DNA of 64,000 nucleotides from contig NZ_CP119108.1 of the NCBI RefSeq assembly GCF_029094505.1, forward strand, positions 3,038,001-3,102,000, written 5' to 3'. Below the pieces are notes generated by a model. The model did no database searches and had not been told where the DNA came from. It was given only the letters and a program-made list of their open reading frames with translations. The DNA comes from Microbacterium horticulturae (GTDB lineage: Bacteria > Actinomycetota > Actinomycetes > Actinomycetales > Microbacteriaceae). Numbering within the stretch: position 1 is the first letter of the stretch; the number at the start of each line of letters is the position of its first letter. Both the position numbers and the translations under genes were made by a program. Positions 24,889 through 54,932 of the stretch are shown here, piece after piece.

Positions 24889-24895
24889 GGCGAGG

Positions 24896-24962
24896 GCGTT
24901 TCGACTCGCCACCCTCGCTCAACGACCGGAGCCGCCGCTCAAACTGCGCCGCCAACGACCGG
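24896..24962. repeat. Degenerate GGTCGTTGAGCG-type repeat remnant
   Basis: The sequence CGTTTCGACTCGCC...CTCGCTCAACGACCGG, followed by a second GCCAACGACCGG, matches the inner half of the repeat at 19922-20074. It lies between the SDR and amidohydrolase genes and ends right at the ribosome site of the latter. Confidence 0.55.
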
Positions 24963-24972
24963 AAAGGTACCC

Positions 24973-25860: not shown

Positions 25861-25861
25861 G

Positions 25862-27052: not shown

Positions 27053-27084
27053 CAATTGATCCACCGGAGAACGGAGACAACACC

Positions 27085-27537
27085 ATGACCACCACCGTCG
27101 ACTACGCCGACCTTCCCTCCCTCGTCGGCAAGGACCTGGGCTACAGCGAATGGCGCGAGATCACGCAGGATCAGGTGAACACCTTCGCTGACGCGACCAG
27201 CGACCACCAGTGGATCCACACCGACCCCGAGCGCGCCAAAGACGGCCCCTTCGGCGGTCCGATCGCGCACGGGTTCCTCACGCTGTCGCTGACCATTCCG
27301 ATGTGGACCGAGCTGCTCGACGTCACCGGCGTGACGACGAAGGTCAACTACGGCCTCGACAAGGTCCGGTTCGTCTCGCCGGTGAAGGTCGGCGCGCGGA
27401 TCCGCATGAACGCGGTCATCGCCGATGTCGCCGAGGTCGCCGGCGGGTACCAGATCACCGTCGACCAGACCATCGAGGTCGAGGGGGGCACCAAGCCCGC
27501 CGTCGTCGCGCGCGGGCTCAGCCGCTTCTACGCCTGA
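27085..27537 (+). CDS. MaoC-family enoyl-CoA hydratase
   Basis: The protein has 150 residues with a single hot-dog fold. The hydratase-2 pair D40 and H45 lies in FADATSDHQWIHTDPERA, followed by GGPIAHGFLTLSL, the standard MaoC motif. GGAGACAACACC precedes the ATG at 27085. In this operon it would hydrate the hydroxycinnamoyl-CoA double bond, the job of CouM in Rhodococcus (inference). Crotonase-type hydratases are absent from the window. Confidence 0.88.
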   Translation: MTTTVDYADLPSLVGKDLGYSEWREITQDQVNTFADATSDHQWIHTDPERAKDGPFGGPIAHGFLTLSLTIPMWTELLDVTGVTTKVNYGLDKVRFVSPVKVGARIRMNAVIADVAEVAGGYQITVDQTIEVEGGTKPAVVARGLSRFYA

Positions 27538-27602
27538 TCCGGCTCGGGCTGCGCCGGCCGCGCGGGCCCGCGGCATCCCCTCTTCAATGACGAAGGAGAC
27601 AC

Positions 27603-29123
27603 ATGCTCAACCACGGCATCGGCACCTGGGTGAACCGGCGCGCCCAGCGCATGCGCGAAGACAGCGCCATCGCGTTCCGCGACCGGCGCATCGGTTACGA
27701 AGAGCTCGACGAGCGCATCCTGCGCCTCGCTGACGCGCTGCGCACACGGGGCGTGCGCGCCGGCGACCGCGTCGCGTACCTGGGCAACAACCACCCCTCG
27801 TTCCTCGAGTCGCTGTTCGCCACCACGATGCTGGGCGCGATCTTCGTGCCGCTGAACACGCGGCTCGCGCCCCCCGAGATCGAGTTCGCGGTCGACAACT
27901 CGGGTGCGACGACGCTCATCTTCCAGGACGTGCTGCTCGACCTGGCGCGCGCCGGCACCTGGTCGACGTCCGCGCAGCGACGCATCTGCGTCGGAGGGGA
28001 CGACATCCCGGGCGTCGAGGACTACGACGCGGTCGTGGCTTCAGGCGCCGACGAGTACGTCGACGTGCCGGTGACGCTCGACGATGCGGCGCTCATTCTC
28101 TACACGTCGGGCACGACCGGGTACCCGAAGGGCGCCGTGCTCACGCACGGCAACCTCACCTGGAACACGTTCAACGCGCTCGTCGACTACGGCATCGGGT
28201 CGGGCGAGCGGGTGCTGCTGATCTCGCCGATGTTCCATGTGGCCTCGCTCGGCATGGGCGCGCTGCCGATCCTGCTGCAGGGCGGCACCGTGATCTTGCA
28301 CGAGCGCTTCGACCCGGGCGAGGTGCTGCATGCCATCCAGAGCGAGCAGGTCACCATGCTCTCGGGGGTGCCGACGACCTACCAGCTCATCGAGGAGCAT
28401 CCCGACTGGGCCACGACCGACTTGTCGAGCCTGCGGCACCTCACCTGCGGCGGCTCGTCGATGCCCAAGCGGATGCTCGAGGCCTATGAACAGCGCGGCC
28501 TGCATTTCTCCTGCGGCTACGGCATGACCGAGACCTCACCCGGTGCCACGGCGATGCCGCCGCACATGAGTATGGAGAAGATGGGGTCGTCGGGTCTGAA
28601 GCAGTTCTTCACCGACGTGAAGATCGTGGGTCCGGAGGGCGGGATGCTGCCGCCCGGCGACGTCGGCGAGATCCTCGTGAGCGGACCGAACGTGATCAGC
28701 GAGTACTGGCGGCGCCCCGAGGCGACGGCTGAGGCGATCGTCGACGGCTGGCTGCACACCGGTGACCTCGGCTACCTCGACGAGGACGGCTACCTGTTCA
28801 TCGTCGACCGGCTCAAGGACATGATCATCTCCGGCGGTGAGAACATCTACTCGGCCGAGGTCGAGGGCGCGATCATGCAGATCCCCGAGATCTCAGCGGT
28901 CGCGCTCATCGGAGTGCCCGATCCCAAGTGGGGCGAGGTGCCGCTGGCCGTGGCGACGCTCGACGAGGGCGCGCATCTGACGGCGGCCGACGTGATCGCG
29001 CGCCTGGACGGGCGCCTCGCGAAGTACAAGATCCCGCGCGATGTGGTGTTCGTCGACGAGCTGCCGCGCACCGCGAGCGGCAAGATCCGCAAGGGCGACC
29101 TGCGCGAGCAGTACGCGCGCTGA
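27603..29123 (+). CDS. AMP-dependent acyl-CoA ligase (candidate hydroxycinnamate-CoA ligase)
   Basis: The protein has 506 residues. The AMP-binding motif is YTSGTTGYPKGAVLTHGN (about residues 165-182). YGMTETSPG, TGDLGYLDEDGY and the catalytic lysine in RTASGKIRKGDL complete the ANL-family set. AAGGAG lies 6 bases before the ATG. As last gene of the operon it would activate the aromatic acid (CouL-like role). Substrate inferred from context; fatty acids are possible. Confidence 0.85.
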   Translation: MLNHGIGTWVNRRAQRMREDSAIAFRDRRIGYEELDERILRLADALRTRGVRAGDRVAYLGNNHPSFLESLFATTMLGAIFVPLNTRLAPPEIEFAVDNSGATTLIFQDVLLDLARAGTWSTSAQRRICVGGDDIPGVEDYDAVVASGADEYVDVPVTLDDAALILYTSGTTGYPKGAVLTHGNLTWNTFNALVDYGIGSGERVLLISPMFHVASLGMGALPILLQGGTVILHERFDPGEVLHAIQSEQVTMLSGVPTTYQLIEEHPDWATTDLSSLRHLTCGGSSMPKRMLEAYEQRGLHFSCGYGMTETSPGATAMPPHMSMEKMGSSGLKQFFTDVKIVGPEGGMLPPGDVGEILVSGPNVISEYWRRPEATAEAIVDGWLHTGDLGYLDEDGYLFIVDRLKDMIISGGENIYSAEVEGAIMQIPEISAVALIGVPDPKWGEVPLAVATLDEGAHLTAADVIARLDGRLAKYKIPRDVVFVDELPRTASGKIRKGDLREQYAR

Positions 29124-38444: not shown

Positions 38445-39899
<1,455 letters not shown>

Positions 39900-42786: not shown

Positions 42787-43755
42787 TCAGCGCCGCCGCG
42801 CGCGGCTGCGCTCGCGCGCCGGCGGCAGCTCGGGCGCCGCGACCTGCGGCCCGACCGCACCCACCAGCTCGCCGATCCCTTCCACGACCAGCCGCACGAC
42901 ATCGCCGGTCTGCAGCGCCGGCAGCTCAGACCCCCGCCCCCACAACTCGCCGAGGCACCCGCCGTTGCCGACGGTCCCCGAGCCGAGCACGTCGCCGGGC
43001 ACGACCCGCGAATTGCGCGATGCGTACGCGATCAGCTCGGGCAGCGGCCACCCCATGTTCGAGACGAGGTCTTCGCCCACGAGCCGGTCGCCTACCCACG
43101 CCTCGGCCCGCACCGCAAGAAACCCGTCGGCATCCAGGTACGGTTCGAGCTCGTCGGCCGTGACGATCCACGGGCCCAGGCTGAGCCCGAAGTCCTTGCC
43201 CTTCGCCGGCCCGAGCCGCACCTTCATCTCGCGGGACTGCAGGTCGCGGGCCGACCAGTCGTTCATGATCGTGTACCCGAAGAGAGTGGATGCCGCCTCC
43301 GCCGCCGTCAGGTTCGCTTCGCCGACACCGGCGGCAGCTCCCACGACCACGGCGATCTCGAGCTCGAAGTCCAGCCGCTGTGTGACCGGCGGCGAGACAG
43401 GCTCGCCGGGGCCGAGCACGGTGTGCGGATTGGTGAAGTAGAAGGTGGGCGCCTTGTACCACTCCGGCACGACCTCGCTCTTGCCGTCCACCGAGGCGCT
43501 CACGCCCTCGACGTGCTCTTCGAACGCCACGAAGTCGCGGATCGAGGCCGGCTGAACGGGCGCGAGCAGCCGCACGTCCGAAAGCGGGGTGCCCGCGGCA
43601 TCCTTCACCCGGTCGTATATGCCGTGCGCGGCATCCAGACCCTGCGCCAGCACGTCGGCGACGGTCAGCCCATCGGGGAAGGGCACCACGCGGTCGTCGA
43701 TGATGAAGCCGTCGGACGGCTCAGCGACCGGGGTCTCCCACCGCGCGATGCGCAT
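42787..43755 (-). CDS. Fumarylacetoacetate hydrolase (FAH) family protein
   Basis: The protein has 322 residues. The FAH catalytic domain shows YKAPTFYFTNPHTVLGPGE, the metal ligands in LDFELEIAVVVG, and GYTIMNDWSARDLQ and KGKDFGLSLGPWIV. These enzymes hydrolyse or hydrate diketo acids from ring cleavage (fumarylpyruvate, fumarylacetoacetate, 2-hydroxypentadienoate-type). It is the last gene of the minus-strand operon that begins with the flavin monooxygenase at 47940 and starts 1 base after the C-C hydrolase stop. It would act late in the pathway. Confidence 0.87.
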   Translation of the reverse strand: MRIARWETPVAEPSDGFIIDDRVVPFPDGLTVADVLAQGLDAAHGIYDRVKDAAGTPLSDVRLLAPVQPASIRDFVAFEEHVEGVSASVDGKSEVVPEWYKAPTFYFTNPHTVLGPGEPVSPPVTQRLDFELEIAVVVGAAAGVGEANLTAAEAASTLFGYTIMNDWSARDLQSREMKVRLGPAKGKDFGLSLGPWIVTADELEPYLDADGFLAVRAEAWVGDRLVGEDLVSNMGWPLPELIAYASRNSRVVPGDVLGSGTVGNGGCLGELWGRGSELPALQTGDVVRLVVEGIGELVGAVGPQVAAPELPPARERSRARRR

Positions 43756-43756
43756 G

Positions 43757-44935
43757 TCAGGCCAGCTCGGCGAAGGTCTCGGCCACCCAGTCGGCGGTCC
43801 ACTGCGACACGTACGGCATGTTGTCGAGGCCGATGTGCTCGGCGCCGCCCTCTTCCTGGGTGAAGATGCGCAGCTCGCGCTTGGGCGAGTTCACAGCCGC
43901 CTCGTACTCCTTGTGCGCGTACGCGACCGGAATCTGCCGGTCGCCCTCGCCGTGCGTGACGAGGAACGGCACCGTGATGTTCTCGACGACGCCTTCGAGC
44001 CGCATGTTCTTCGTCTTCTCGATGAAGTCGTCCATGTCGCTCGCGCCGAACACCCAGTGCACGTGGTCCCAGTAGTGCGGCACGGGGTTCTCACCCTCGC
44101 GGTTCCGGCGGGCTTCTTGCACCGCAGCCCAGTCGTAGTTCGCGCCCCACGCCACGGCCAGAGCGATGCGCTTCTCGAACGCCGTCGCGCGCGGCACGTA
44201 GTATCCGCCCAGCGACCACCCGACGAGACCCACGCGAGCGGCATCCACCCCCAGCTCGTCCGCGTGCGCCTCGATCCAGTCGAGCGTCGACGCGGCCCAC
44301 ACCTCGGTGTCGTAGCGGGCGCGCAGATCGCGCATGCGCAGCGCCTCGCCCGACCCGGGCGGGTCCATCATGAGCGTCGAGATGCCGCGGGCGGCCAGTT
44401 CCTGAGGGAAGCCCGAGGTGTACATCATCTCCTTGGTCGAGTCCAGGCCGTTCCAGATCACGATGAGCGGGTGCGGCGCTTCGCCGGGCGCCCGGTAGAA
44501 GTAGCCCGGCAGCGCGGCGCCCTCAGGCGCATCGTCGCCCGTGTAGGGGATGTCGACGGTGCTCAGCGGCACGTCGCCCAGCTCGACGTGCTTGAGCAGC
44601 AGGTCGATGGACTTCTGGTAGGCGGCCTTGCGGCCTTCCCACTTGGGCGACTGCAGCCGCTCGGCCTGCGAGGTGTACAGCGCTGCGCGGTAGTACTTCT
44701 CGGCGGCGCCCTTGCGCCAGCCGCGGGCCTCGTCTTCCTGCGCCGACGCGAGCAGCCGGTCGGCGACGGCCTGCCACGAGCCGTACAGCAGCTCCGTGCC
44801 GACGTCGTCGCCCTGCTGCGACGCCTCGAGCACGGGCCGCGAGGCCTTGTCGACATCGTCGATGAGCCCGCCGTTGTTCAGCGTGGCAACGACCGACATG
44901 CTCCACACATAGTTGGTCGGGAAGTACATGTACAT
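43757..44935 (-). CDS. Alpha/beta hydrolase of the C-C bond hydrolase (dihydropseudooxynicotine hydrolase-like) type
   Basis: The protein has 392 residues. A helical N-terminal domain (about 1-140, RGWRKGAAEKYYRAALYTSQAERL) precedes the hydrolase fold with VIWNGLDSTKEMMY, the elbow GWSLGGYYVPRATA, and a C-terminal acid and histidine (THGEGDRQIPV, GGAEHIGLD). This architecture matches 2,6-dihydropseudooxynicotine hydrolase and FrsA-like enzymes, which cleave C-C bonds of diketones. Here it would cleave a ring-opened product. AAGGAG lies 5 bases before the ATG at 44935. Exact substrate unknown. Confidence 0.8.
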   Translation of the reverse strand: MYMYFPTNYVWSMSVVATLNNGGLIDDVDKASRPVLEASQQGDDVGTELLYGSWQAVADRLLASAQEDEARGWRKGAAEKYYRAALYTSQAERLQSPKWEGRKAAYQKSIDLLLKHVELGDVPLSTVDIPYTGDDAPEGAALPGYFYRAPGEAPHPLIVIWNGLDSTKEMMYTSGFPQELAARGISTLMMDPPGSGEALRMRDLRARYDTEVWAASTLDWIEAHADELGVDAARVGLVGWSLGGYYVPRATAFEKRIALAVAWGANYDWAAVQEARRNREGENPVPHYWDHVHWVFGASDMDDFIEKTKNMRLEGVVENITVPFLVTHGEGDRQIPVAYAHKEYEAAVNSPKRELRIFTQEEGGAEHIGLDNMPYVSQWTADWVAETFAELA

Positions 44936-44967
44936 GGGGACTCCTTCGGGAGGGGTGGATGCCGCAG

Positions 44968-45747
44968 CTACGCGCGCACGGCATCGGAAAGGTAGGTGGC
45001 CACGCCCGACGTGAACTGCCCGCCGTCGACGGGCACGTCGACTCCGGTCACGTAGGACGCGGCTTCTGACAGCAGGAACGCCACGACGTTCGCGACCTCC
45101 TGGGGCTGTCCGCCGCGGTGGAGCGGAGAGACGGCCTCGTTGGCCGCGAGGAACGCCGCTGGGGCGCTCGCGGTCATGTCGGTGTGGATGTAACCCGGGT
45201 GCACGAGGTTGACTCGGATGCCACGCGGCCCGAGCTCGGTCGCGCACGAGTGCGACAGCCCGCGGATCGCCCACTTGCTGGCGGTGTACGCGGCCGTGTA
45301 GTGGCCGGTCATGCCGGCGGCCGAGCCGACGTTCACGATCGCGGACCCCTCACCCATGAGCGGAAGGAGGGCCTGGATGCCGAGCATGGGGCCCGTGACG
45401 TTGATGGCGAGCACGCGATCCCAGTCCTCGCGCACGACGGCTCCGATCCGCGTGCGCTGGGTCACCCCGGCGTTGTTGACGAGACCCTTCACCCGGCGCC
45501 CGTCGAGCGCGTCGGCGAGCGCCTGCCACCCCGCCTCGTCGGTGACGTCGAGCGTGCGGTAGGTCACCGTGCCGGGCAGCGGTGCGGCCTCGTCGAGAAG
45601 CTCGGGCGCTTCGTCGCGGATGTCGGCGGCCACGACATCGGCCCCCTGCGCCGCCAGCAGGAGCGCTTCTTGGGCGCCCTGGCCGCCGGCCGCTCCGGTG
45701 ACGACGAAGAGGTTGCCGGCGATGCCCGGCAGCTGGTACTCGCTCAT
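44968..45747 (-). CDS. SDR-family oxidoreductase
   Basis: The protein has 259 residues. It has the nucleotide site VTGAAGGQGAQEALLL, NNAG, and the catalytic YTASK with serine upstream in VGSAAG, ending VDGGQF. It looks like a classical NAD-dependent dehydrogenase of 3-hydroxysteroid or diol type. Its start overlaps the VOC gene stop (ATGA) within the catabolic operon. It could rearomatise a dihydrodiol or oxidise a side-chain alcohol; not determinable. Confidence 0.87.
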   Translation of the reverse strand: MSEYQLPGIAGNLFVVTGAAGGQGAQEALLLAAQGADVVAADIRDEAPELLDEAAPLPGTVTYRTLDVTDEAGWQALADALDGRRVKGLVNNAGVTQRTRIGAVVREDWDRVLAINVTGPMLGIQALLPLMGEGSAIVNVGSAAGMTGHYTAAYTASKWAIRGLSHSCATELGPRGIRVNLVHPGYIHTDMTASAPAAFLAANEAVSPLHRGGQPQEVANVVAFLLSEAASYVTGVDVPVDGGQFTSGVATYLSDAVRA

Positions 45748-46160
45748 GCGGTCACCGGCCCTTTCCGATCGAGGAGTTCGATGAAGTTGCCTTCGGGGTC
45801 CGTCAGGTAGGCGAACCGCACACCGGGCTCGGGTGACGGTCCCGGTTCGGCCACCACCCGCGCGCCCGCAGCCACCAGGCCCGCGAACGTCTCGTCGATG
45901 TCGGCGACGCGCAGGCAGAGATGCCCCCAGCCCTGCGCGAGCAACTCATCGGGAGGGGTGGATGCCGGGGCCCGGTGCGTGGACCCGCGGCGCTCAAGAA
46001 GTTCGATGGAGATGCCGTCGGGGCCGAGCAGGAACACCCCGCGCAGTCCCGCGCCGGGCACGTCGAACGCGCCCGCGGTGCCGAACCCGAAGGCGCGCTG
46101 ATACCAGTCCCGCTGGGCGTCGAGATCGCCCACCGACAAGCCGATGTGGTCGACGTGCAT
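45744..46160 (-). CDS. VOC-superfamily (glyoxalase/dioxygenase fold) protein
   Basis: The protein has 138 residues with two paired beta-alpha-beta-beta-beta units. HIGLSVGDLDAQRDWYQRAFGF, HLCLRVADI and DPEGNFIELLDRKG supply the usual metal ligand positions (H, H, E). It could be a small isomerase, lyase or dioxygenase acting on a pathway intermediate. It overlaps the SDR start and is 2 bases downstream of the cupin gene. Confidence 0.82.
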   Translation of the reverse strand: MHVDHIGLSVGDLDAQRDWYQRAFGFGTAGAFDVPGAGLRGVFLLGPDGISIELLERRGSTHRAPASTPPDELLAQGWGHLCLRVADIDETFAGLVAAGARVVAEPGPSPEPGVRFAYLTDPEGNFIELLDRKGPVTA

Positions 46161-46162
46161 GG

Positions 46163-46816
46163 TCAGTCCCCCTGGTCGGCGGACACGGTGACGCCAGCGG
46201 GTGCGTCCGACGCCGGCTTCGCCCCTGTGCCGGCCCGAACATCGTGCGGTCCCTGCGTCATCAACTCGTCGCGCACGTCGGCGGGCAGGGTGCTGAGCAA
46301 GCCCTCGTCGAAGCGGCCGTCGATGAGGATGAACGCCATCCGGCACACCTCATCGGTCCGGTTCGCCCACGCATGGTCTGTGCCCCGCTGGATGCAGATG
46401 TCGCCGGTGCGCAGCGTCGTCTCGCTCTCGTCGAGGATGAGCACGATCTCTCCTTCGAGCACGATCCCGTAATCGACGGACTCCGTGCGGTGCACCGGAG
46501 ATTGACGCCCCTCCGGACCGAGGTGTCCGGGGAAGAACTCGTTGATCCGGACCTTGGTGCCCTCCACCGGTGGGGGCACACGGATCGCGTCGACCGTGGG
46601 GTCGGGCTCATCCGCAGAGATCGGGGCGGGCGCACCACTGGTCTGCCACACCTCGTAGAATCCGACGCCGTCTTCAGGCATGACCCGGTGGACGGGCACG
46701 ACGCCGTCCGAGACGACGATCGACAGCCCGTTCGCATCGTGGCCGGTGACCACCCGGCGAGGGATGTTGCCCTGCGGCATCCCGTCTTCACGCCCCCCGG
46801 TCCGTGGTGCCGTCAT
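46163..46816 (-). CDS. Cupin-domain protein
   Basis: The protein has 217 residues with one cupin domain (about 125-175): HRTESVDYGIVLEGEIVLILDESETTLRTGD and QRGTDHAWANRTDEVCRM. The histidine and glutamate positions typical of cupins are seen as HRTES and DHAW. Such proteins act as isomerases, decarboxylases or ring dioxygenases. The ATG at 46816 overlaps the monooxygenase stop (ATGA). Its exact reaction is unknown. Confidence 0.82.
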   Translation of the reverse strand: MTAPRTGGREDGMPQGNIPRRVVTGHDANGLSIVVSDGVVPVHRVMPEDGVGFYEVWQTSGAPAPISADEPDPTVDAIRVPPPVEGTKVRINEFFPGHLGPEGRQSPVHRTESVDYGIVLEGEIVLILDESETTLRTGDICIQRGTDHAWANRTDEVCRMAFILIDGRFDEGLLSTLPADVRDELMTQGPHDVRAGTGAKPASDAPAGVTVSADQGD

Positions 46817-47940
46817 GGCGCGGGCACCAGCGCGACCAGCGCGTCGTTCATGACCCGCTCGGGTTCGGCGTCGCGCGAGCCGGGGTTCTGCTCCCACTTC
46901 GCCAGGAGCAGGGAGGCGTCCACGACACCCTTGATGCGCGGGATGCGTCGGTCATGGAAGTCGCTGAGCTGCTGCTGAAGATCACCCTCGCCCGTCACGT
47001 ACTCGGCGAACAGCAGGGCATCCTCCACGCACAGCGCGGCGCCCTGGGCGATCAACGGCGGAACCGCGTGCACGGCCTCGCCGAGCGCGACGACGCGGCC
47101 TGAGTGCCAGGGCCCCTCGACGAAGATCCATTCGATCTCTTGATGGTTCAAGAACGTGTCGGGCCCGATCGACTCGCGCAGCTCGTCGAATTCCCCGTGG
47201 TAGTTCTCCATGAGGCGCCTGACCTCTTGCCAATCCTCAAGCCCGTTGTCGGGGCGATCGGGATGGCAGAGCACGAAGACGTAGCAGTGGGTGGGGCTCA
47301 CCGGTGTGTAACCGACCTTGTACGCTCGCCCGTCGTTCTCGGTGGGGAACGCTATTCCCCCGCTCATGTCGGGGCGCCGGGTCGTGACCGCCCGCCAGAT
47401 CCCCAGACCGCTGGGCGCCCGGTCTTCGGTGATGCCGAGCTTTGCGCGGTTCTGCGACTTGATGCCGTCGGCGATGACGATGAGGTCCCACGATGCAGTC
47501 GTGCCGTCGGTGAGCACCGAGGTGGCCGAGTCGTCATGAGACTCGAACGATGCCAGCTCGACGCCCAGCCGAATCTCCACACCCAGATCTTCTGCCTTTG
47601 CGACGAGGATCTCGTGCAGATCCGGTCGCAGCGCACCGATGGTGGGGGGCAGATCGTCGCCGCCGGTGCGGGGCGTGTGCATCTCGGCCAGCACGTGACC
47701 GTTGGCCAATGCCAGCTTCAGCCCCTCTTCGGGCTGCCCCACGGCGAGCACCTCGTCGATGACGCCGATCTGCGCGAACACACGCAGCGCGTTGCCCTGA
47801 ATCGTCAAGCCGTGGCCGACACGGGCCCATGCCTGCGCCTTGTCGACGAGAGTGACCCGCACGTCGCGCTGTGCCAGCGCGATGGCCGCGGTCAAGCCGG
47901 TGAATCCCCCGCCCACGATGAGCACATTCCGAACCGACAT
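46813..47940 (-). CDS. FAD-dependent aromatic monooxygenase, class A
   Basis: The protein has 375 residues, the size of salicylate or 6-hydroxynicotinate monooxygenases. The FAD fold is VLIVGGGFTGLTAAIALA (6-23) and the DG segment VIADGIKSQNR. The GD segment, normally GDAAH, reads GEAVHAVPP (287-295), an Asp-to-Glu change at the ribose-binding position. GAGGAAGGG precedes the ATG at 47940. It is the first gene of the operon down to 42787 and likely hydroxylates the starting aromatic ring, perhaps with loss of carboxylate (inference). Confidence 0.85.
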   Translation of the reverse strand: MSVRNVLIVGGGFTGLTAAIALAQRDVRVTLVDKAQAWARVGHGLTIQGNALRVFAQIGVIDEVLAVGQPEEGLKLALANGHVLAEMHTPRTGGDDLPPTIGALRPDLHEILVAKAEDLGVEIRLGVELASFESHDDSATSVLTDGTTASWDLIVIADGIKSQNRAKLGITEDRAPSGLGIWRAVTTRRPDMSGGIAFPTENDGRAYKVGYTPVSPTHCYVFVLCHPDRPDNGLEDWQEVRRLMENYHGEFDELRESIGPDTFLNHQEIEWIFVEGPWHSGRVVALGEAVHAVPPLIAQGAALCVEDALLFAEYVTGEGDLQQQLSDFHDRRIPRIKGVVDASLLLAKWEQNPGSRDAEPERVMNDALVALVPAP

Positions 47941-48025
47941 CCTCGCCCTTCCTCTCACGGCGCGTCATCACGCCTCACCGCTCGAACGTATGAGGGAACG
48001 GCGGCCGAAACCAATCGTCGTGCGC

Positions 48026-48038
48026 GATGACTGCTATC
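48026..48038 (-). promoter_or_regulatory. Candidate LysR box before the 47940 monooxygenase operon
   Basis: On the minus strand GATAGCAGTCATC, that is GATAG-N5-ATC, lies 85 bases before the monooxygenase start. The same layout occurs at 48961-48973 and 56010-56022, each beside a gene of the same LysR subgroup. Confidence 0.4.
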
Positions 48039-48044
48039 GGGAGG

Positions 48045-48959
48045 TCACGCAGCGAACAGTCCATCGGCGCGGGCACGCGCGACAAGGGCGCGGAACCACG
48101 TGTGGGCGGGATCATGGGCGCGGGCGGGATGCCACCACAGCCGTTCAATCAGCTCCACGGGCGCGAACGGAGTGGGCACGATGACAGTGCCGGTGACCGC
48201 CGCGTTCTGCTCAGCCAATCGCCGCGGCACGATGCCGATGAGCCGGGTGCCGCGCACGACGAGCGGGATCGACAGCAGCGTGGAGGTCGTCACGCGCACA
48301 GCCGGCCACAGATCGAGCTCACGCATGCGCCGCTCGACGGGAATGATGTGCGCGTGCCCGAACTCGCACCGCACGTAGGGGCTGGCAGCGAAATCCTCCG
48401 CTGAGATCTCGCCCGACGCTACGACCGGGTTGCCGCGGTCGGCGACGACGACATACTCGTCGCGGAACAGTTCGACGCTGTCGAGGTCGAGGCCGATCGC
48501 CGGCGGGGCCACGACGAAGTCGTGCACCAGCAGATCACGGTTCGCCTCGGCGGGGATCACGTCGAGCTTGGAGAGTTCGACGCTGATGCCGGGCGCCGCG
48601 GCGGAGGCCAGTCCCAGCAGCGGCCGCAGCTCGATCGCGGCGTAGTCGGTCATCTCCATTCTGAAGCGTCGCTTCGCGGTGGCCGCGTCGAACGGCTCCG
48701 TCTGCCCGAGTGCGGTGGCCACCAGCGGAAGCGTGAGCTGCACCTGCGGCAGCAGCTGCCGCGCCAGGGGCGTCAGCTCGTAATCACGCCCGACGCGTAC
48801 CAACAGTTCATCGTGGAACACCGCCCGCAGGCGTGACAGTGCCGACGACATCGTCGATTGGCCGATGCCGATCCGCTCGCCCGCGCGCGTCACGTTGGAC
48901 TCTTCCAGCAGGGCGCGCAAGGCGACGAGCAGGTTCAGATCGGGTTCATCATCGACCAC
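48045..48959 (-). CDS. LysR-family transcriptional regulator
   Basis: From a GTG at 48959 the protein has 304 residues. The helix-turn-helix is at about 8-65 (LRALLEESNVTRAGERIGIGQSTMSSALSRLR) followed by DELLVRVGRDYELTPLARQLL, typical of the NodD/NahR-like LysR branch that responds to aromatics. It lies between the two catabolic arms: downstream on its strand is the monooxygenase operon, and divergent is the extradiol dioxygenase. It probably activates both. Confidence 0.88.
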   Translation of the reverse strand: MVDDEPDLNLLVALRALLEESNVTRAGERIGIGQSTMSSALSRLRAVFHDELLVRVGRDYELTPLARQLLPQVQLTLPLVATALGQTEPFDAATAKRRFRMEMTDYAAIELRPLLGLASAAAPGISVELSKLDVIPAEANRDLLVHDFVVAPPAIGLDLDSVELFRDEYVVVADRGNPVVASGEISAEDFAASPYVRCEFGHAHIIPVERRMRELDLWPAVRVTTSTLLSIPLVVRGTRLIGIVPRRLAEQNAAVTGTVIVPTPFAPVELIERLWWHPARAHDPAHTWFRALVARARADGLFAA

Positions 48960-48960
48960 A

Positions 48961-48973
48961 GATGCATGGTATC
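48961..48973. promoter_or_regulatory. Candidate LysR box between LysR and the extradiol dioxygenase
   Basis: On the minus strand GATACCATGCATC, matching GATAS-N5-ATC, lies directly at the LysR start and about 100 bases before the dioxygenase gene. Autoregulation and activation of the divergent gene are both possible. Confidence 0.35.
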
Positions 48974-49071
48974 CCGTGGGCGCATGGCAGCCGCGCCGCG
49001 GTCGACTTACTCTCGAGACACAAGCCTCGGGCCGCGGCATCCCTCCGCGCCCCTCCGATGAAGGGTCGACG

Positions 49072-50007
49072 ATGACACAGCGACTGGTCTCACATCTGCG
49101 CTACGCGGCACTCGCGGTGCCGAACTTCGACGAGGAGCGCGACTTCTTCATCCGGCACTGGGGCCTGACCGAGGTGCACGGCGAAGACGGCCTGAGCTAC
49201 CTCGCCGCCGAGGGCTCGACCGAGCCGTTCATCCTGCGCCTGCGTCGCGACGAGAAGCGCGTCGACCTGGCCGGATTCGGCGTACGCAATCGCGCGGACG
49301 TCGACGCTCTCGCCGCCAAACTGCACGCCGACGACGTGCAGTTCGTGCACGAGCCGCAGGAGCTGACCGGGTTCAGCGGCGGCTACGGCTTCCGCATCTT
49401 CGACGGCGACGGCCGCGTGCTCGAGTTCTCGACCGGGTACCAGACGCGGGAAGCCCGCAAGATCCGCGAGCGCGAGCCCATCCCGGCCAAGCTCTCGCAC
49501 ATGGTCTTCAACTCGCAGGACCTCAACAAAACCGCGCGGTGGTACATCGACCATCTCGACTTCACGATCTCGGACTCGCTCGTGCGCCCCGACGGCGCCG
49601 AGATGATGCATTTCCTGCGCTGCAATCCGAACCACCACTCGATCGCCGTGGCGATGGGCCCGCACCACTCACTGCACCACCTCTCGTTCGAGATGCGCGG
49701 CATCGAGGAGTGGATGCGCGGTGCCGGCAAGATCCTCCGCTCGGGCGCCCGCATGATCTGGGGTCCCGGTCGGCACAACGCGGGCGACAACACGTTCGCG
49801 TACTTCCTCGACCCGGCCGGCAACACCATCGAGTACACGACCGAGCTGGCGCTGGTCGACGACGACCTGTGGGAGGCCCACCGCCACGACATCAGCGAGT
49901 TGTCCACGCAGGATCAGTGGGGCACGGCCCAGGAGATGAGCGAGCTCGTCGCCCGCGAATCGTTCAACGACATCGACAAGGGCCTGTTCGTCGCACCGCC
50001 GGTGTGA
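49072..50007 (+). CDS. Type I extradiol ring-cleavage dioxygenase (VOC fold)
   Basis: The protein has 311 residues, the two-domain length of catechol 2,3-dioxygenase and 2,3-dihydroxybiphenyl dioxygenase. The iron ligands are H143 (LSHMVFNSQDL), H202 or H203 (LHHLSFEMRG) and E254 (GNTIEYTTE). The fingerprint DPAGNTIEYTTEL matches the family signature. It would open a catecholic ring by meta cleavage. The start at 49072 is the only good ATG at the domain start, though its ribosome site is weak (GAAGGGTC). Substrate not determined. Confidence 0.85.
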   Translation: MTQRLVSHLRYAALAVPNFDEERDFFIRHWGLTEVHGEDGLSYLAAEGSTEPFILRLRRDEKRVDLAGFGVRNRADVDALAAKLHADDVQFVHEPQELTGFSGGYGFRIFDGDGRVLEFSTGYQTREARKIREREPIPAKLSHMVFNSQDLNKTARWYIDHLDFTISDSLVRPDGAEMMHFLRCNPNHHSIAVAMGPHHSLHHLSFEMRGIEEWMRGAGKILRSGARMIWGPGRHNAGDNTFAYFLDPAGNTIEYTTELALVDDDLWEAHRHDISELSTQDQWGTAQEMSELVARESFNDIDKGLFVAPPV

Positions 50008-50049
50008 CCGGGCTGCGGCATCCACCCATTCGTTGAAAGAGGACCGACA

Positions 50050-50565
50050 ATGACACGCATCCACTTCGCCGTCGACCACGGCGGGTACGAACTGGGCCGG
50101 GCGCTCGAGCAGCGGGCGACCGACGGCCGCTTCGAGGTCGTCTGGCACGGCGCTGATGAGCTCGATCCGGGTGACGACTACCCGGTGTACGCCATCGCCG
50201 TCGCGCAGGCGGTCGTGAAGGACCAGGATGCCGGTATCGACGCGTTCGCGGTGCTCGTCGTCGACGAGGCCCTCGCCGGGGTCGTCGCCGCGAACAAGGT
50301 GAACGGCGCGCGCGCCGTCACGACGACATCGCCGCGTGCAGCGGCCACGGCCCGCGCGGTCGTCGATGCCAACGTGCTCGTGATCGACGGTGTGGCGTTC
50401 GAGGAGTCGGCGTGGCTGAACATCTACGCGTTCGTCTCGAGCGGCATGGACCAGACCGTCGAGCGCGGCCGGCAGATCCTGCAGATCGAGGAGTATGAGA
50501 ACGCCGGCACCATCGAGGGATGGGCCGTGCAGCTCGAGCCCGAGCAGATTCTGCGCACCTACTGA
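50050..50565 (+). CDS. RpiB/LacA/LacB-family protein lacking the usual active-site loop
   Basis: The protein has 171 residues. The opening IHFAVDHGGYELGRAL and the later AANKVNGARAV and DANVLVIDG match RpiB/LacAB sugar-phosphate isomerases. The CGTGxG loop that binds phosphate and carries the catalytic cysteine is replaced by LVVDEALAG (69-77), so isomerase activity is doubtful. It follows the extradiol dioxygenase by 42 bases and precedes a quinone oxidoreductase. It may have a new role in this pathway or bind another acid. Confidence 0.78.
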   Translation: MTRIHFAVDHGGYELGRALEQRATDGRFEVVWHGADELDPGDDYPVYAIAVAQAVVKDQDAGIDAFAVLVVDEALAGVVAANKVNGARAVTTTSPRAAATARAVVDANVLVIDGVAFEESAWLNIYAFVSSGMDQTVERGRQILQIEEYENAGTIEGWAVQLEPEQILRTY

Positions 50566-50593
50566 CCTTTCGCCAGAGACCTGGAGGTTTCAC

Positions 50594-51508
50594 ATGCCCC
50601 GTGCCGCACTGTACGACCACACCGGAGGACCCGATGTTCTCTACATCGGCGAGGTGCCCGAGGCCGAACCCGGGCCCGGAGAGGTCGTGCTTCGCGTGCG
50701 CGCCGCCGGCCTGAATCCGTTCGACAGCAAGATGCGCAGCGGATTCGTTCCGCTGGACGCGCCCTTTCCCCGGCGCACGGGCAGCGATGTCGCCGGCACC
50801 GTGACCGCCGTCGGGACGGGCGCCTCATACGCGGACGGCACTGATGTCGCCGTCGGCGACGAGGTGATGGGCCGTGCCGCCGGCGCGGTCGCCGAGCAGG
50901 TGGTCGCGGCGGCCGCCGAGGTGACGCGTCGACCCGACGGCGTGAGCATCGAGGTCGCCGGCAGTCTCTGGGTGGCCGGGCTGACCGCCGTCTCGTGCCT
51001 TGTCACCGTCCCTGTCTCCGCCGACGACACGGTGCTCGTCGGCGGCGCGACCGGTGCTGTGGGCCTGATCGTCTCGCAGCTGGCCATCGCAGCGGGTGCG
51101 CGGGTGATCGGCACCGCGAACGAACGGAACCATGAGTTGCTGCGCTCGCTCGGTGTGGAACCTGTCGCGTACGGAGAAGGTCTCGCCGACCGCGTGGCGG
51201 CGCTCGGACAGGTGACCGCTGTCGTCGACGCGCACGGCCGCGAAGCCCTCGACGCCGGCGTGGCACTGGGTGTCCCCGTGAAGCGCATGGTGGCGATCGC
51301 CGCGTACGGCGTCGCCGAAGAGCTGGGCACCCTCGAAGCCGAACGCGAGGCGCGCACCGCGGAGAACCTCGCGAAGCTCGCCGACGACGTCGCGGCGGGT
51401 CGGCTCGCGCTGCCGATCGCGGCCTCCTTCCCCCTCGACGACGTGGTCGCCGCCTACACGGCACTGGACGAGTCGCACGACCCGGGAAAAGTCGTCGTCA
51501 CGCCCTGA
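50594..51508 (+). CDS. NADPH:quinone oxidoreductase (zinc-free MDR family)
   Basis: The protein has 304 residues. RAAGLNPFDSKMRSG and RTGSDVAGTVTAVG are the quinone oxidoreductase N-terminal motifs, with the nucleotide site VLVGGATGAVGLIVSQLA (about 155-172). No zinc ligands are seen. GGAGG lies 6 bases before the ATG at 50594. Within the ring-cleavage cluster it could reduce a quinone made by the flavin monooxygenases or an enone intermediate. Confidence 0.87.
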   Translation: MPRAALYDHTGGPDVLYIGEVPEAEPGPGEVVLRVRAAGLNPFDSKMRSGFVPLDAPFPRRTGSDVAGTVTAVGTGASYADGTDVAVGDEVMGRAAGAVAEQVVAAAAEVTRRPDGVSIEVAGSLWVAGLTAVSCLVTVPVSADDTVLVGGATGAVGLIVSQLAIAAGARVIGTANERNHELLRSLGVEPVAYGEGLADRVAALGQVTAVVDAHGREALDAGVALGVPVKRMVAIAAYGVAEELGTLEAEREARTAENLAKLADDVAAGRLALPIAASFPLDDVVAAYTALDESHDPGKVVVTP

Positions 51509-51565
51509 CGGCGACGCGGCAGTGTCGCCATCTCACGCAGGTGGGAGGGCGACAGGCGGAAAGGA

Positions 51566-52693
51566 ATGACGGTGAGACTCGATTCCGCCCTCATCGTCGG
51601 CGGCGGGCCGGCCGGTCTCGTCGCGGCCACCGCGCTGGCTCGGTCGGGCACCCGCGTACACGTCGTGGAGATCGAGCCGGAGCTGACCACGCGTGGCGTG
51701 GCGGTGAACATCCAGAACTCGCCGTTGCGCGCGCTGGCGACTCTCGGGGTGATCGACGAGGTCGTCGCCCACGGCCACACGACCGGCCGTGTCAACATGC
51801 TCACCGCGGACGGCACGCCGATCATGCCGCCGCTGGAACCTGAGTCTCTGGTGCCGGGCTACCCGGCCTCTGTCGAGCTGTACCGACAGACGCTGTCGCG
51901 CATCCTCGAGAGGACGGCGCTCGACGCCGGGGCGACCGTCCAGTACGGCACCACAGCGACGGCGCTGGAGGATGCCGGTGCAACGGTGCATGCGACGCTT
52001 TCCGACGGGACGCATGCCGACCATGACCTCGTCATCGGCGCCGACGGCATCCACTCCATGATCCGCGACCTCGTCTTCGGCGACGATGCACCACGTCCGC
52101 TCTACAGCGGCCAGTGCATCTGGCGTGCCGAAGCCGAGCGCGGCGATGTGCCCGAGCTCATGATGCTCCACGGCCCGCACGGCAAGCTCGGCATGCTGCC
52201 ACTGAGCGACACGCGGATGTACGTCTACCTGCTCAAGGCGTTCGAGACGGTGCCCACGCGGGACCAGATCGGAGACGTGGATGCCGGTCTGCGCGCCGCG
52301 CTGGCCGAATACACCGGGCCGGCGACCGGGGTCGCCGACCGCCTCCTCCCCTGCGCCGACTTCCGTGCGCTCACGAGCATGCTCCTCCCCCACCCGTGGT
52401 ATCGCGGGCGCGTGCTGCTGATCGGCGACGCCGCCCACGCCACCACTCCGCACCTGGCCTACGGCCTGGGGCTCGCCGTCGAGGACGGCGTCGTCCTGGC
52501 CGAGATCCTCTCCGCTGCCGACACGCTTGCGCAGGCCCTGGCCGCCTTCATGGCACGTCGGTTCGAGCGTTGCCGGCTCGTCGTCGAGAACTCCCGCCAG
52601 ATCTCCGAGTGGGAGCAGCACCCGCCGCCAGACCCGCGTCTGCAGGGCCGCCTCATGGGCGAGTCGATGATCACACTCACACAGCTGCCCTGA
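51566..52693 (+). CDS. FAD-dependent aromatic monooxygenase, class A
   Basis: The protein has 375 residues. It has LIVGGGPAGLVAATALARSG at the N-terminus, the DG segment VIGADGIHSMIRD and a normal GD segment LIGDAAHATTPHLAYGLGLAVED. It is a paralogue of the enzyme at 46813 but with an intact GD site. An ATG at 51566 abuts AAGGA; a GTG two codons later has better spacing and may be the true start. It would hydroxylate a phenolic ring in the same pathway. Confidence 0.86.
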   Translation: MTVRLDSALIVGGGPAGLVAATALARSGTRVHVVEIEPELTTRGVAVNIQNSPLRALATLGVIDEVVAHGHTTGRVNMLTADGTPIMPPLEPESLVPGYPASVELYRQTLSRILERTALDAGATVQYGTTATALEDAGATVHATLSDGTHADHDLVIGADGIHSMIRDLVFGDDAPRPLYSGQCIWRAEAERGDVPELMMLHGPHGKLGMLPLSDTRMYVYLLKAFETVPTRDQIGDVDAGLRAALAEYTGPATGVADRLLPCADFRALTSMLLPHPWYRGRVLLIGDAAHATTPHLAYGLGLAVEDGVVLAEILSAADTLAQALAAFMARRFERCRLVVENSRQISEWEQHPPPDPRLQGRLMGESMITLTQLP

Positions 52694-52742
52694 CCTCAGC
52701 GCCCGGACCGATCGCGGCCGTCGCGCCGTCGTCGGCCGGGCG

Positions 52743-53384
52743 TCACTCCGACGGCGTCAACAGCACCATGCGCGCGACCGCCGGCATCCGTTCGTCCGGT
52801 GGCGGGCCGAGGGCGCCTGCTTCGCGAAATTCACCGCCGAAGGCGATATCCCACGAGATCGCTTCGAACACCATGCCGAACACGCTCCGCACGGCGCTGT
52901 CGGGGTCGGCGTGCGGGTAGTCGACTGCGCGATCGAGCAGACGCGTCGTGAACGCATCGGCCATCCGGCGGATCGCTCGGGCCCCCGACGCGCGCATGAC
53001 GGGGTCAACGGCCGCACGCAGCACTATCGCGCGCACGATCTCAGCGCGTGTTCTGATGTGATCGGCCAGCAGGCGCACGGCTCGCTCGATGAGCGCCGGT
53101 GTGGCCAGCGCGTCCCACGCCGGGCCCGGTGAGTACATCGCGGTGACGGCCTCGACCATTTCGGTCATGACGTGGTCGTGGATGGCGCGCACGAGAGCGT
53201 CCTTGTTCTCGAAACGCGTGTACACGGCACCCGTGGAGCTCGACGCCCGCCGGCAGACCTCCGCGATCGTGAGCCCGTCGTAACCCCCGGCGGCGAAGAC
53301 GGCAGCACCCGCGTCGAGCACCCGCTCGAGAGTGCGTTGCGACCGTGCCTGACGAGGCGGCCGCACGCCCGAGGACTCCTGCAT
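52743..53384 (-). CDS. TetR-family transcriptional regulator
   Basis: From the ATG at 53384 the protein has 213 residues. The helix-turn-helix is at about 12-60 (GAAVFAAGGYDGLTIAEVCRRASSSTGAVYTRFENKDALV). It diverges from the second LigM-like gene across 135 bases, which hold a 25-base palindrome over a promoter (53441-53475). It probably represses that gene and itself. Confidence 0.87.
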   Translation of the reverse strand: MQESSGVRPPRQARSQRTLERVLDAGAAVFAAGGYDGLTIAEVCRRASSSTGAVYTRFENKDALVRAIHDHVMTEMVEAVTAMYSPGPAWDALATPALIERAVRLLADHIRTRAEIVRAIVLRAAVDPVMRASGARAIRRMADAFTTRLLDRAVDYPHADPDSAVRSVFGMVFEAISWDIAFGGEFREAGALGPPPDERMPAVARMVLLTPSE

Positions 53385-53440
53385 GGTCTCAGTTTCGCAG
53401 GGCGTCCGCCTGGTCACACCCGATACCTCACATCACCGGA

Positions 53441-53475
53441 ACAGGGTTCAGACTCTGGATTCTGTTTCATAGGCT
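53441..53475 (+). promoter_or_regulatory. Promoter and TetR-type operator of the second LigM-like gene
   Basis: -35 TTCAGA (53447-53452) and -10 TAGGCT (53470-53475) are 17 bases apart. A 25-base imperfect palindrome (53441-53465, arms ACAGGGTTCAGA and TCTGGATTCTGT, 9 of 12 pairs) covers the -35. It fits control by the divergent TetR. Confidence 0.55.
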
Positions 53476-53519
53476 CAGGCCACGGCATCCCCCGCCGTTC
53501 CACGTCGAAGGAGACAGTC

Positions 53520-54932
53520 ATGAGCCAGAGCCTTGAGTCGTTGCTGCAGGAGGCCGGCGGGCCGCTGAACCTGTTGCGTGCGCACAAGTTCGACCGGCCC
53601 GATGCGAAGCCGGAGTACCGGCCTCAGCAGATCGTTCCCGTGCTGCCGCAGGAGTTCTCACTGTGGGAACGGGAGACCCGCTCCTGGCGTGAGAGCGTGG
53701 CGTTGTTCGACCAGACGCATCACATGTCGGGACTGTTCTTGGAAGGGCCGGATGCCCGCCGCCTGCTGTCCGACCTCGCGATCAACGACTTCGCAAGCTC
53801 TCGGCCCGGCGTCGCACGCCAGATCGTCTGTGTCAACGACGACGGCGACCTCATCGGCGACAGCATCGTCTTTCACCTCGACGACGAACGCTTCTCCACC
53901 TACGGCTCCGGTTTCGTGCAGAACTGGCTGATGTACCACGCGCAAACGGGCGGTTACGACGTGCACGCCGAATTCGACGCGAAGGCGCCGGTGTATCCGA
54001 ACGGCTTCGCCAACACGCGACCCGACTGCCGCTACCAGATTCAGGGGCCTCTCGCCGGTGCCCTCATCGAAAAGCTCAACGGCGGTCCGCTCGGCGACGT
54101 GAAGTTCTTCCACATGACCGAGATCACAATCGGCGGACACCGTTGCCGAGCGCTGCGCCACGGCATGGCCGGGGCGGCCGGCCTGGAGGTCTGGGGGCCC
54201 TACGAGCACCGGGAGCAGATTCGGGATGCCATCATCGAGGCCGGCCGTGAGTTCGGGCTTCAGGTGGTCGGTGGTATGGCCTACCTCATCGGCGCCATTG
54301 AATCGGGGTGGTACCAGGCGGTTCTCCCCGCCATCTACACCGCACCGGCGCTCCGCGGCTACCGCGAGTGGCTGCCGGCAGGCGAGGGCGAGGGGATGAT
54401 CCGGTTGGCGGGAAGCCAGGAGTGCCCGCGCATCGAGGACTACCACCGCACACCGTTCGACCTCGACTATGGCAAGCTCATCCGCTTCGAACATGAGTTC
54501 ATCGGTCGCGATGCGCTGCGACGGCGACAGGAGGAGCCCGCGCTGCGCAAGGTCACGCTGCAGTGGAACCCGCAAGACGCGGCATCCCTCTTCTCCGAGA
54601 TGCTCACTCCGGACGGCCGCAATGTCCGCTTCCTCCACCTTCCGGCGATGTGCGACAAGCTCGACAAGCACTACGACACCCTCACCCTCGACGGACGCTC
54701 GGTCGGGAACTCCGCCTACACGGCGTACACCGCAAATGAGCGGTCGATCCTGTCGCTGGCGCTCGTCGACGACAGCGTGCAGATCGGCGACGAGGTAGTC
54801 ATCGGATGGGGCGAGGCCGGCGGCGGCTACGGAGCGAATGTGACGCCGGCCACCGACATCTTCGAGATCCGCGCGACGGTCAGCCCGGCGCCGTTCGCCC
54901 GCGTGGCCCGGGAGGAGTATCGCGCCGGGTGA
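53520..54932 (+). CDS. Second tetrahydrofolate-dependent O-demethylase (LigM/DesA-like)
   Basis: The protein has 470 residues and shares with 38496-39899 the segments [64 protein letters not shown] and YTAYTANERSILSLA. It differs in its N-terminus and in the region 290-330, so it may prefer another methoxyarene such as syringate, 3-O-methylgallate or guaiacyl compounds. It is not beside metF but has its own TetR and promoter. AAGGAG lies 6 bases before the ATG at 53520. Confidence 0.83.
   Translation: MSQSLESLLQEAGGPLNLLRAHKFDRPDAKPEYRPQQIVPVLPQEFSLWERETRSWRESVALFDQTHHMSGLFLEGPDARRLLSDLAINDFASSRPGVARQIVCVNDDGDLIGDSIVFHLDDERFSTYGSGFVQNWLMYHAQTGGYDVHAEFDAKAPVYPNGFANTRPDCRYQIQGPLAGALIEKLNGGPLGDVKFFHMTEITIGGHRCRALRHGMAGAAGLEVWGPYEHREQIRDAIIEAGREFGLQVVGGMAYLIGAIESGWYQAVLPAIYTAPALRGYREWLPAGEGEGMIRLAGSQECPRIEDYHRTPFDLDYGKLIRFEHEFIGRDALRRRQEEPALRKVTLQWNPQDAASLFSEMLTPDGRNVRFLHLPAMCDKLDKHYDTLTLDGRSVGNSAYTAYTANERSILSLALVDDSVQIGDEVVIGWGEAGGGYGANVTPATDIFEIRATVSPAPFARVAREEYRAG

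Follow-up and report, generated by a model that had tools for sequence, protein, structure and literature searches.

Which compound is degraded by the ring-cleavage genes of Microbacterium horticulturae that lie between positions 42787 and 54932 of the stretch analysed here? This stretch, called the window below, covers 64,000 nucleotides (positions 3,038,001 to 3,102,000 of contig NZ_CP119108.1, forward strand; assembly GCF_029094505.1) of a 3.65-Mb genome assembled as one contig, and the named close relatives of its proteins are mostly from Microbacterium. Hydroxylation, type I extradiol cleavage, C–C hydrolysis and processing by the fumarylacetoacetate hydrolase (FAH) family can all be recognized in the gene set, and no textbook pathway fits it, as the initial annotation had noted. 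The core of the set (42787–50565) is probably an actinobacterial catabolic cluster for a plant flavonoid-type polyphenol aglycone, which would be opened by meta-cleavage of its A ring. This reading is preferred because the gene families match those of the flavonoid clusters ifc and fde and of related plasmid clusters, because accessory and C-glycoside genes are found nearby, and because the catalytic residues are intact.

Gene content and conservation of the core

All 13 genes listed by the initial annotation were recovered as open frames at or near where it had placed them, with agreeing family assignments. They are organized in two arms around a LysR regulator gene (48045–48959, minus strand; PF00126/PF03466), which is flanked by gaps of 104 and 112 bp, while all other gaps from the FAH gene to the second monooxygenase gene range from −4 to 57 bp. 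The minus arm continues from lysR with a group A flavin monooxygenase, FMO1, the proposed A-ring hydroxylase (46813–47940; PF01494; best PDB match 4bjy, 86.6 bits), a single-domain cupin of the superfamily shared with IfcD (46163–46780; PF07883), a small single-domain VOC protein of 138 aa (45744–46160; PF00903), an SDR oxidoreductase (44968–45747; PF13561), an alpha/beta C–C hydrolase of the Ayg1 and 2,6-dihydroxypseudooxynicotine (DHPON) hydrolase family (43757–44935; PDB 8qd7, 80 bits, and 2jbw, 59 bits) and a fumarylacetoacetase or acylpyruvase-like FAH-family hydrolase (42787–43755; PF01557, 154 bits), whose PDB relatives are of the fumarylacetoacetate hydrolase and 2-hydroxyhepta-2,4-dioate isomerase types; from FMO1 onward these genes are −4 to 32 bp apart. 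The plus arm, with gaps of 28–57 bp, consists of a type I extradiol dioxygenase (EDO; 49072–50007; PF00903; 3b59, 195 bits), an RpiB-fold protein without the canonical sugar-phosphate motifs (RPI; 50050–50565; PF02502, 62.8 bits), a quinone oxidoreductase-like MDR protein (50594–51508; PF08240) and a second group A flavin monooxygenase assigned by family match, FMO2 (51566–52693). Beyond it lie a TetR regulator gene and a LigM-like demethylase gene, which are treated below.

The residues expected for catalysis are retained in the enzymes that define the cluster, as seen in alignments into each of which the window gene entered twice. The EDO metal ligands His143, His203 and Glu254 are identical in 83 of 83 rows, and the cupin residues His97, Thr99, Asp103, His136 and Trp138 in 34 of 34. 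The hydrolase triad Ser241/Asp332/His367 is identical in all 35 rows of its alignment, to which Ayg1 and DHPON hydrolase, related to it by sequence through the PDB matches, do not belong; both of these enzymes cleave C–C bonds beside ketones. FMO1 and FMO2 share the group A character of the ifc and fde monooxygenases by their PF01494 domain, PDB matches and motifs: GxGxxG was read directly in both sequences, and G[DE]AxHxxxPxxxxG occurs in both and in 66 of the 71 members of the FMO1 cluster.

To assess the conservation of this arrangement, the EDO alignment was scanned against a genome contig collection; from the 91 relatives obtained, 80 loci were retained, each extending at most 10 kb to either side of the EDO gene. 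The tally of locus types comprises 77 entries, the window and 76 of the 80 loci; L007, L018, L082 and L086 are left out of it for having no clustered EDO frame, although in L007 and L018 core genes are visible in the gene-order comparison. Type A, defined as EDO together with the hydrolase, is formed by the window and 22 fetched loci, in which the hydrolase, SDR, VOC, cupin, FMO1 and LysR genes stand divergent from EDO and the RpiB-like gene. Among the 23 type A entries, FMO1 and the SDR are present in 23, the cupin in 22, the RpiB-like protein in 20 and the VOC protein and LysR in 19 each, followed by an ALDH in 14, the FAH of this cluster in 13 and the quinone oxidoreductase in 10. This grouping exceeds chance, and the core is a real conserved unit. 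The 13 genes do not form a single pathway: the quinone oxidoreductase belongs to the core only in part, and FMO2 (whose best match among the genes of other loci reaches 31%, in L048), TetR (family present in 3 of 23 entries) and the LigM-like protein fall outside. The synteny search that had been advised thus recovered the core in 22 further loci and the LigM-like gene in none of them, the window being its only type A entry within these limits.

The cluster is rare, EDO being found in 4 genomes of a genus sample of 119 and in 14 of a family sample of 299. EDO clusters, mostly of type A, were also seen in Aurantimicrobium, Rhodoluna and other Microbacteriaceae or actinobacterial metagenome-assembled genomes (L028–L036, L081), some of which are small and probably from freshwater, which hints at a dissolved plant phenolic as the substrate. 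A second kind of locus, type B, combines EDO with an amidohydrolase and lacks the hydrolase; it was seen 40 times, in many cases in Actinomadura, Nonomuraea and their relatives. Of these loci, 39 have one FAH and 33 have another, 38 have FMO1 and 37 have a cyclase, and one of the amidohydrolases scores 185 bits against ACMSD structures. The hydrolase and the amidohydrolase occur together in none of the 77 entries, 14 of which are neither type A nor type B. Two Microbacterium-like EDO loci come from assemblies labelled Stenotrophomonas maltophilia P13 (L014) and Planococcus sp. APC 4015 (L017), which are probably mislabelled or contaminated.

Beside the lysR start lies a conserved element, GATGCATGGTATCC (48961–48974), a possible LysR site that may be partly coding, as the start of lysR is uncertain. 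Its GGTATyC portion is retained in 15 of 15 aligned gaps, and 12 of 22 loci match a stricter pattern. The window contains one exact copy and no second one: three matches at up to three mismatches compare with 3.3 expected by chance, those other than the exact copy having three mismatches. The search thus gave no evidence that one regulator drives several promoters of the window.

Relation to flavonoid clusters and the proposed route

The closest published gene sets are found in flavonoid degradation. In the ifc cluster of Variovorax, which represents a pathway known from bacteria of soybean roots, work with mutants and recombinant enzymes has linked the monooxygenase IfcA, the glyoxalase-type dioxygenase IfcB (weakly active in vitro) and the cupins IfcD1/D2 to the breakdown of daidzein: the group A monooxygenase 8-hydroxylates isoflavones, and the cupins act on the resulting 4-pyranone (PMC11069340). 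A DHPON-like hydrolase is encoded there too, and the cluster is similar to the fde naringenin genes (PMC11069340). By gene family, it shares with the window the group A monooxygenase, the glyoxalase-type dioxygenase, the cupin and the DHPON-like hydrolase, as well as other oxidoreductases and regulators, together with the logic of A-ring cleavage; it differs in that ifc is reported in Pseudomonadota only, and that the passages of that paper used here mention no RpiB-like partner (PMC11069340). The Variovorax dioxygenase probably belongs to another subfamily than the EDO of the window, the likeness being drawn from family descriptions. Likewise by description, the monooxygenase FdeE and the dioxygenase FdeC of the Herbaspirillum naringenin cluster act on the A ring (PMC11069340, PMC11303751), and the lumichrome pathway of Nocardioides (LumE/LumW/LumY) shares extradiol cleavage to a pyrone followed by a hydrolase and a cupin hydratase, while its upstream enzymes are of P450, Rieske and xanthine oxidase type (PMC12746152).

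Related genes were compared in 12 plasmid stretches, six of them chosen through a hydrolase match, five through a cupin match and one through an EDO match. A Sphingomonas R1 plasmid has an FMO, EDO (39% identity), hydrolase (49%), cupin (51%) and FAH close together, and plasmids of Burkholderia anthina and Diaphorobacter have the hydrolase, a more distant EDO, an FMO, cyclase, cupin and FAH. The Bradyrhizobium elkanii plasmid, from a soybean nodule, encodes an EDO (32%), FMO, cupin, FAH, OCD (43%), DHDPS-like protein (61%) and ALDH (36%); no hydrolase match was found in this stretch or in two Variovorax stretches, which share with it and with type A the OCD, DHDPS-like and ALDH genes. These two Variovorax plasmid stretches (L087, L108) were considered as ifc itself and rejected, since they match in OCD, DHDPS-like protein, ALDH, cupin and FAH but contain no FMO or EDO. 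Parts of the set are seen in Massilia, without a matching cupin, in Croceicoccus, without a matching FMO of this kind, and in Deinococcus, which lacks a matching cupin and whose EDO is of a second kind; in Streptomyces (L103) about 19 kb separate the hydrolase from EDO, and the EDO of K84 (L101) is of that second kind as well. Wherever it is found, the hydrolase is 44–51% identical, and the neighbouring EDOs belong to different subfamilies. The cupin is 41–51% identical to those of the plasmid clusters and FMO2 34–38% identical to their monooxygenases. A similar mix (cupin 44%, hydrolase 45%, FMO, several VOC proteins and FAH) is present on pNL2 of Novosphingobium aromaticivorans (L090:6274–23409), which we take to be a possible home of the uncharacterised structure 3b59, presumably from the same organism.

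Genes, families, catalytic residues, synteny and linkage are observed, and from them we infer the substrate, the order of reactions and every chemical step. In the proposed route, C-glycoside oxidase and deglycosidase genes to the left of the window would supply aglycones, FMO1 (or FMO2) would place a second, ortho-hydroxyl on the A ring, and EDO would open the dihydroxylated ring. With a 5,7-dihydroxy A ring that has been 8-hydroxylated, extradiol cleavage is predicted to give a 1,3-diketone (an acylpyruvate), the substrate class of the Ayg1/DHPON and FAH families, so that this hydrolase and the FAH enzymes could cut it. The remaining pyranone would be processed by the cupin, VOC and SDR proteins and by genes to the right of the window. 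The published intermediate X3 is a 2-hydroxy-4-pyranone (PMC11069340), a structure from which, in our own reading, the loss of A-ring carbons 5–8 follows. The acid derived from the B ring might then pass to enzymes encoded in the same island, namely those of the CoA-ligase/amidohydrolase set, LigM, PobA and the protocatechuate branch, and the LigM-like protein may demethylate methoxylated variants.

Several observations weigh against this reading. Disruption of the DHPON-like gene of Variovorax left daidzein degradation intact (PMC11069340), possibly because daidzein, which is 5-deoxy, is predicted to yield no 1,3-diketone. The EDO of the window is only 25–32% identical to those of B. anthina, Massilia, Diaphorobacter and Bradyrhizobium and is therefore not an orthologue of the Burkholderiales/Bradyrhizobium type, and FMO1 is slightly less similar than FMO2 to the monooxygenases of these bacteria. 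The content shared with the plasmids is partly a product of selection, because the stretches were picked by hydrolase, cupin or EDO matches; of the six not picked by the hydrolase, three contain it (L088, L089, L090) and three, Bradyrhizobium among them, do not; this selection and the lack of a hydrolase match in Bradyrhizobium make the flavonoid reading somewhat less secure. The element search lends no support to co-regulation of both arms. Type A clusters occur in genomes of 1.3–2.0 Mb of probable freshwater lineages, for which flavonoid glycosides seem a less obvious food. Finally, the presence of C-glycoside deglycosidase beta (CGDB) genes and of EDO is not associated across the genus sample (2 of 4 against 26 of 115 genomes; Fisher p=0.24), so that it is co-location that carries the C-glycoside link.

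C-glycoside genes and the RpiB-fold protein

Related genes are found on both sides of the window. To its left lie three copies of CGDB (PF19906), the nearest 1.1 kb from the edge; they are 50–80 kb from EDO here and 9–31 kb from it in genome G099, and the CGDB and GMC oxidase identities were confirmed by Pfam. To its right, at 8–17 kb, the genome encodes the accessory set of type A, with an OCD (77%), DHDPS-like protein (84%), cyclase (91%) and ABM protein (78%), which together with FAH relatives span contig positions 3110413–3119724. GMC and deglycosidase relatives occur within 10 kb of EDO in 8 of the 80 loci, one of which, L009, is apparently the same contig as that of G099; the Deinococcus and Croceicoccus stretches also carry deglycosidase-type genes, and the Deinococcus GMC oxidase is 46% identical. 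The GMC gene of locus L013 matches structures 8qve, 7qf8 and 7dve, the latter two of which are PsPOx and MtCarA (PMC10807413). This locus and three other Microbacterium-type loci of type B (L016, L017, L019) carry, in addition to the EDO and RpiB-like pair, a CarA-like GMC oxidase and a second gene, C40, of oxidoreductase type. The described CarABC system of Microbacterium and PurABC system of Paenarthrobacter have their counterparts in the CarA-like oxidase and deglycosidase genes of the same island, close to EDO in some relatives, whereas the published passages treat deglycosylation and not the fate of the aglycone (PMC8563793, PMC12724307, PMC10807413).

Two further stretches of the same genome were noted. 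A second polyphenol-type cluster to the left of the window (L115:7303–17027) comprises a C-glycoside deglycosidase, GMC oxidase, TIM-barrel partner, MFS protein, ACMSD-like amidohydrolase, monooxygenase and second extradiol dioxygenase. At L116:16575–18074, a single frame of 499 aa fuses deglycosidase beta and TIM-barrel domains, which are separate subunits in the described enzymes (PMC8563793).

Within the window, the region at 5–40 kb encodes protocatechuate 3,4-dioxygenase, PcaB- and PcaD-like proteins, a thiolase, a PobA-like protein, a CoA ligase, MaoC, SDR and acyl-CoA dehydrogenase proteins, an MTHFR-like protein and LigM, a set that should suffice to channel a B-ring fragment of cinnamate type into the beta-ketoadipate route. 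The SDR, amidohydrolase, acyl-CoA dehydrogenase, MaoC and CoA-ligase genes at 23971–29123 resemble phenylpropanoid side-chain sets, presumably of the CouLMNO/Phd kind, and relatives of four of them (not the acyl-CoA dehydrogenase) adjoin the type B EDO in five Actinomadura loci (L042, L043, L070, L071 and L073).

The RpiB-fold protein, a frequent partner of EDO, is the most unusual part of the cluster. It belongs to the Pfam family and scores below the cut-offs of the RpiB models (80 against 168 for TIGR02133, 72 against 135 for NF004051 and 69 against 88 for TIGR00689); VDEALAG replaces the GGSGxGE-type loop, and VVDAN the HNN motif. GGxGxxE is kept in 9 of 31 RpiB-like proteins of the loci, all of them deeper ones, several of which also keep the HNN histidine, while the Microbacterium forms, including that of the window, have lost both. 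An RPI match at E≤1e-20 exists in 252 of the 299 family-sample genomes, mostly of a strength resembling that of ordinary RpiB, but the 11 best matches are all in EDO-positive genomes, followed by the EDO-negative G379 and then the positive G130. In 11 of the 14 EDO-positive genomes RPI lies within about 2.3 kb of EDO on the same contig; in G234, G273 and G138 no adjacent pair was seen. In the EDO tree, which was built by a quick method after 24 of the 35 rows labelled B had been left out and which contains one misplaced long-branch row (L101_K84b), the RpiB-bearing Microbacterium loci of type B are nested in the clade of type A, on branches that comprise 15 and 21 rows and have SH-aLRT support of 99 and 100%, so that the genes for EDO and the RpiB-like protein seem to have been transferred together between cluster kinds. 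Motif loss and linkage suggest that RPI works with EDO and not as a sugar-phosphate isomerase. A more extended proposal, which we regard as possible and hold only tentatively, is that RPI would serve as the isomerase/tautomerase or hydratase for the product of ring cleavage, as part of a full actinobacterial pathway by which C-glycosylated and methoxylated flavonoids reach central metabolism, with a retro-Claisen Ayg1-type hydrolase acting on the acylpyruvate from 5,7-dihydroxy A rings and the LigM paralogue demethylating a non-carboxylated polyphenol.

Alternative substrates and the LigM-like demethylase

Among the alternatives, the one that survives best, though we think it unlikely, is that the same kind of cleavage is directed at the A-type ring of another aromatic polyketide or C-glycoside aglycone, such as an anthraquinone (kermesic acid, for example), a xanthone or a chromone. 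The Ayg1-type hydrolase, SnoaL, ABM and FAD-linked oxidase families that recur in type A loci would suit such a substrate, and a Microbacterium C-glycoside deglycosidase was discovered on carminic acid; however, the nearest published gene sets, as far as the papers compared here describe them, are the flavonoid ones (ifc/fde), and the cinnamate-type CoA set and protocatechuate branch of the island suit a flavonoid B ring.

The initial annotation had favoured a methoxylated hydroquinone or syringate-type substrate. In a pathway of this kind, LigM-like demethylation and decarboxylative hydroxylation to a hydroquinone would precede extradiol cleavage. The LigM-like tetrahydrofolate-dependent demethylase gene (53520–54932, plus strand) and a quinone-reductase-like gene do lie close together, and both monooxygenases match the decarboxylative vanillate hydroxylase 8x38 (FMO1 at 70 bits, FMO2 at 46 bits). 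The demethylase is nevertheless distinct from LigM: it scores 493 against the LigM cut-off of 580 and 419 against the DesA cut-off of 800 (NCBIfam equivalog scores), and the GRAP segment of LigM is GSGF in its sequence and GAGF in the orthologue of genome G105, in an alignment where two rows with wrong open frames (L093 and L094) were ignored and L005 yielded no row. The arginine of GRAP is presumably Arg122, which we take to bind the carboxylate. A true LigM (vanillate/3-O-methylgallate demethylase; 38496–39899, plus strand; 858 bits against 580), which keeps GRAP, is encoded outside the cluster, and with the MTHFR-like (36681) and formyltransferase-domain (37569) genes upstream of it constitutes a normal folate-linked set for vanillate demethylation. 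The DesZ, DesB and LigAB routes for syringate and gallate require a LigB-family dioxygenase, and no match to this family (PF02900) exists in the host genome, the control having matched in 4 of 14 genomes. The LigM-like gene cannot define the substrate of the core, because the 22 other type A loci yielded no such gene. The syringate/gallate reading was therefore rejected on the LigB search, the cut-offs and the loss of the arginine; the LigB argument leaves the methoxyhydroquinone variant untouched, so that this variant is only made unlikely, and we consider the pathway as a whole improbable.

The demethylase is rather an accessory of the cluster. Orthologues of at least 85% identity are confined, among the 119 genus genomes, to this genome and G105, other matches reaching at most 51%; they are thus found in 2 of the 4 EDO genomes (this one included) against 0 of 115 others (Fisher p=0.0009), and lie 3.5 kb from EDO here and 1.6 kb in G105, within 3.6 kb in both. 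The neighbouring TetR gene (52743–53384, minus strand; family match; an alternative start at 53321 is favoured by one gene call) has a 72% orthologue that adjoins the demethylase orthologue in L105, so that the pairing exists in two genomes. TetR and the LigM-like demethylase are an add-on to the core, which is tied to the cluster in some strains and, judging from the altered segment, probably serves a methoxylated substrate without a benzoate carboxylate.

A resorcinol-type substrate is the least probable of all and was rejected: the pathways for orcinol and alkylresorcinols, which proceed by hydroxylation to a trihydroxybenzene, extradiol cleavage and hydrolysis of a trioxo acid, likewise combine a monooxygenase, an EDO and 1,3-diketone hydrolases, but no comparable orcinol cluster was described among the literature matches listed, and such a substrate would leave unexplained both the OCD/DHDPS-like/cyclase set common to the plasmid clusters and the C-glycoside genes.

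The cluster had also been called an undescribed system. This has to be qualified, as the ifc and fde clusters are known in Pseudomonadota, and it holds for the Actinomycetota, in that no description of the cluster there was found among the papers listed from the open-licence PMC literature, nor among open-licence papers on syringate and Microbacterium, DHPON hydrolase, ribose isomerase or LigM. The cluster is real, conserved and coherent, and is best interpreted as an actinobacterial form of flavonoid A-ring degradation, the genes for which have so far been described, in the literature searched, from Pseudomonadota. The lignin-monomer reading, which could have pointed experiments at the wrong substrates, is thereby corrected, and the enzymes to be assayed can be named. 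Two proteins of the cluster, the RpiB-fold protein and the LigM paralogue, probably have functions that are new. The cluster is thus a candidate for the fate of the aglycone in Actinomycetota, which would be the missing half beside the removal of the sugar as the published passages describe it in Microbacterium and Paenarthrobacter.

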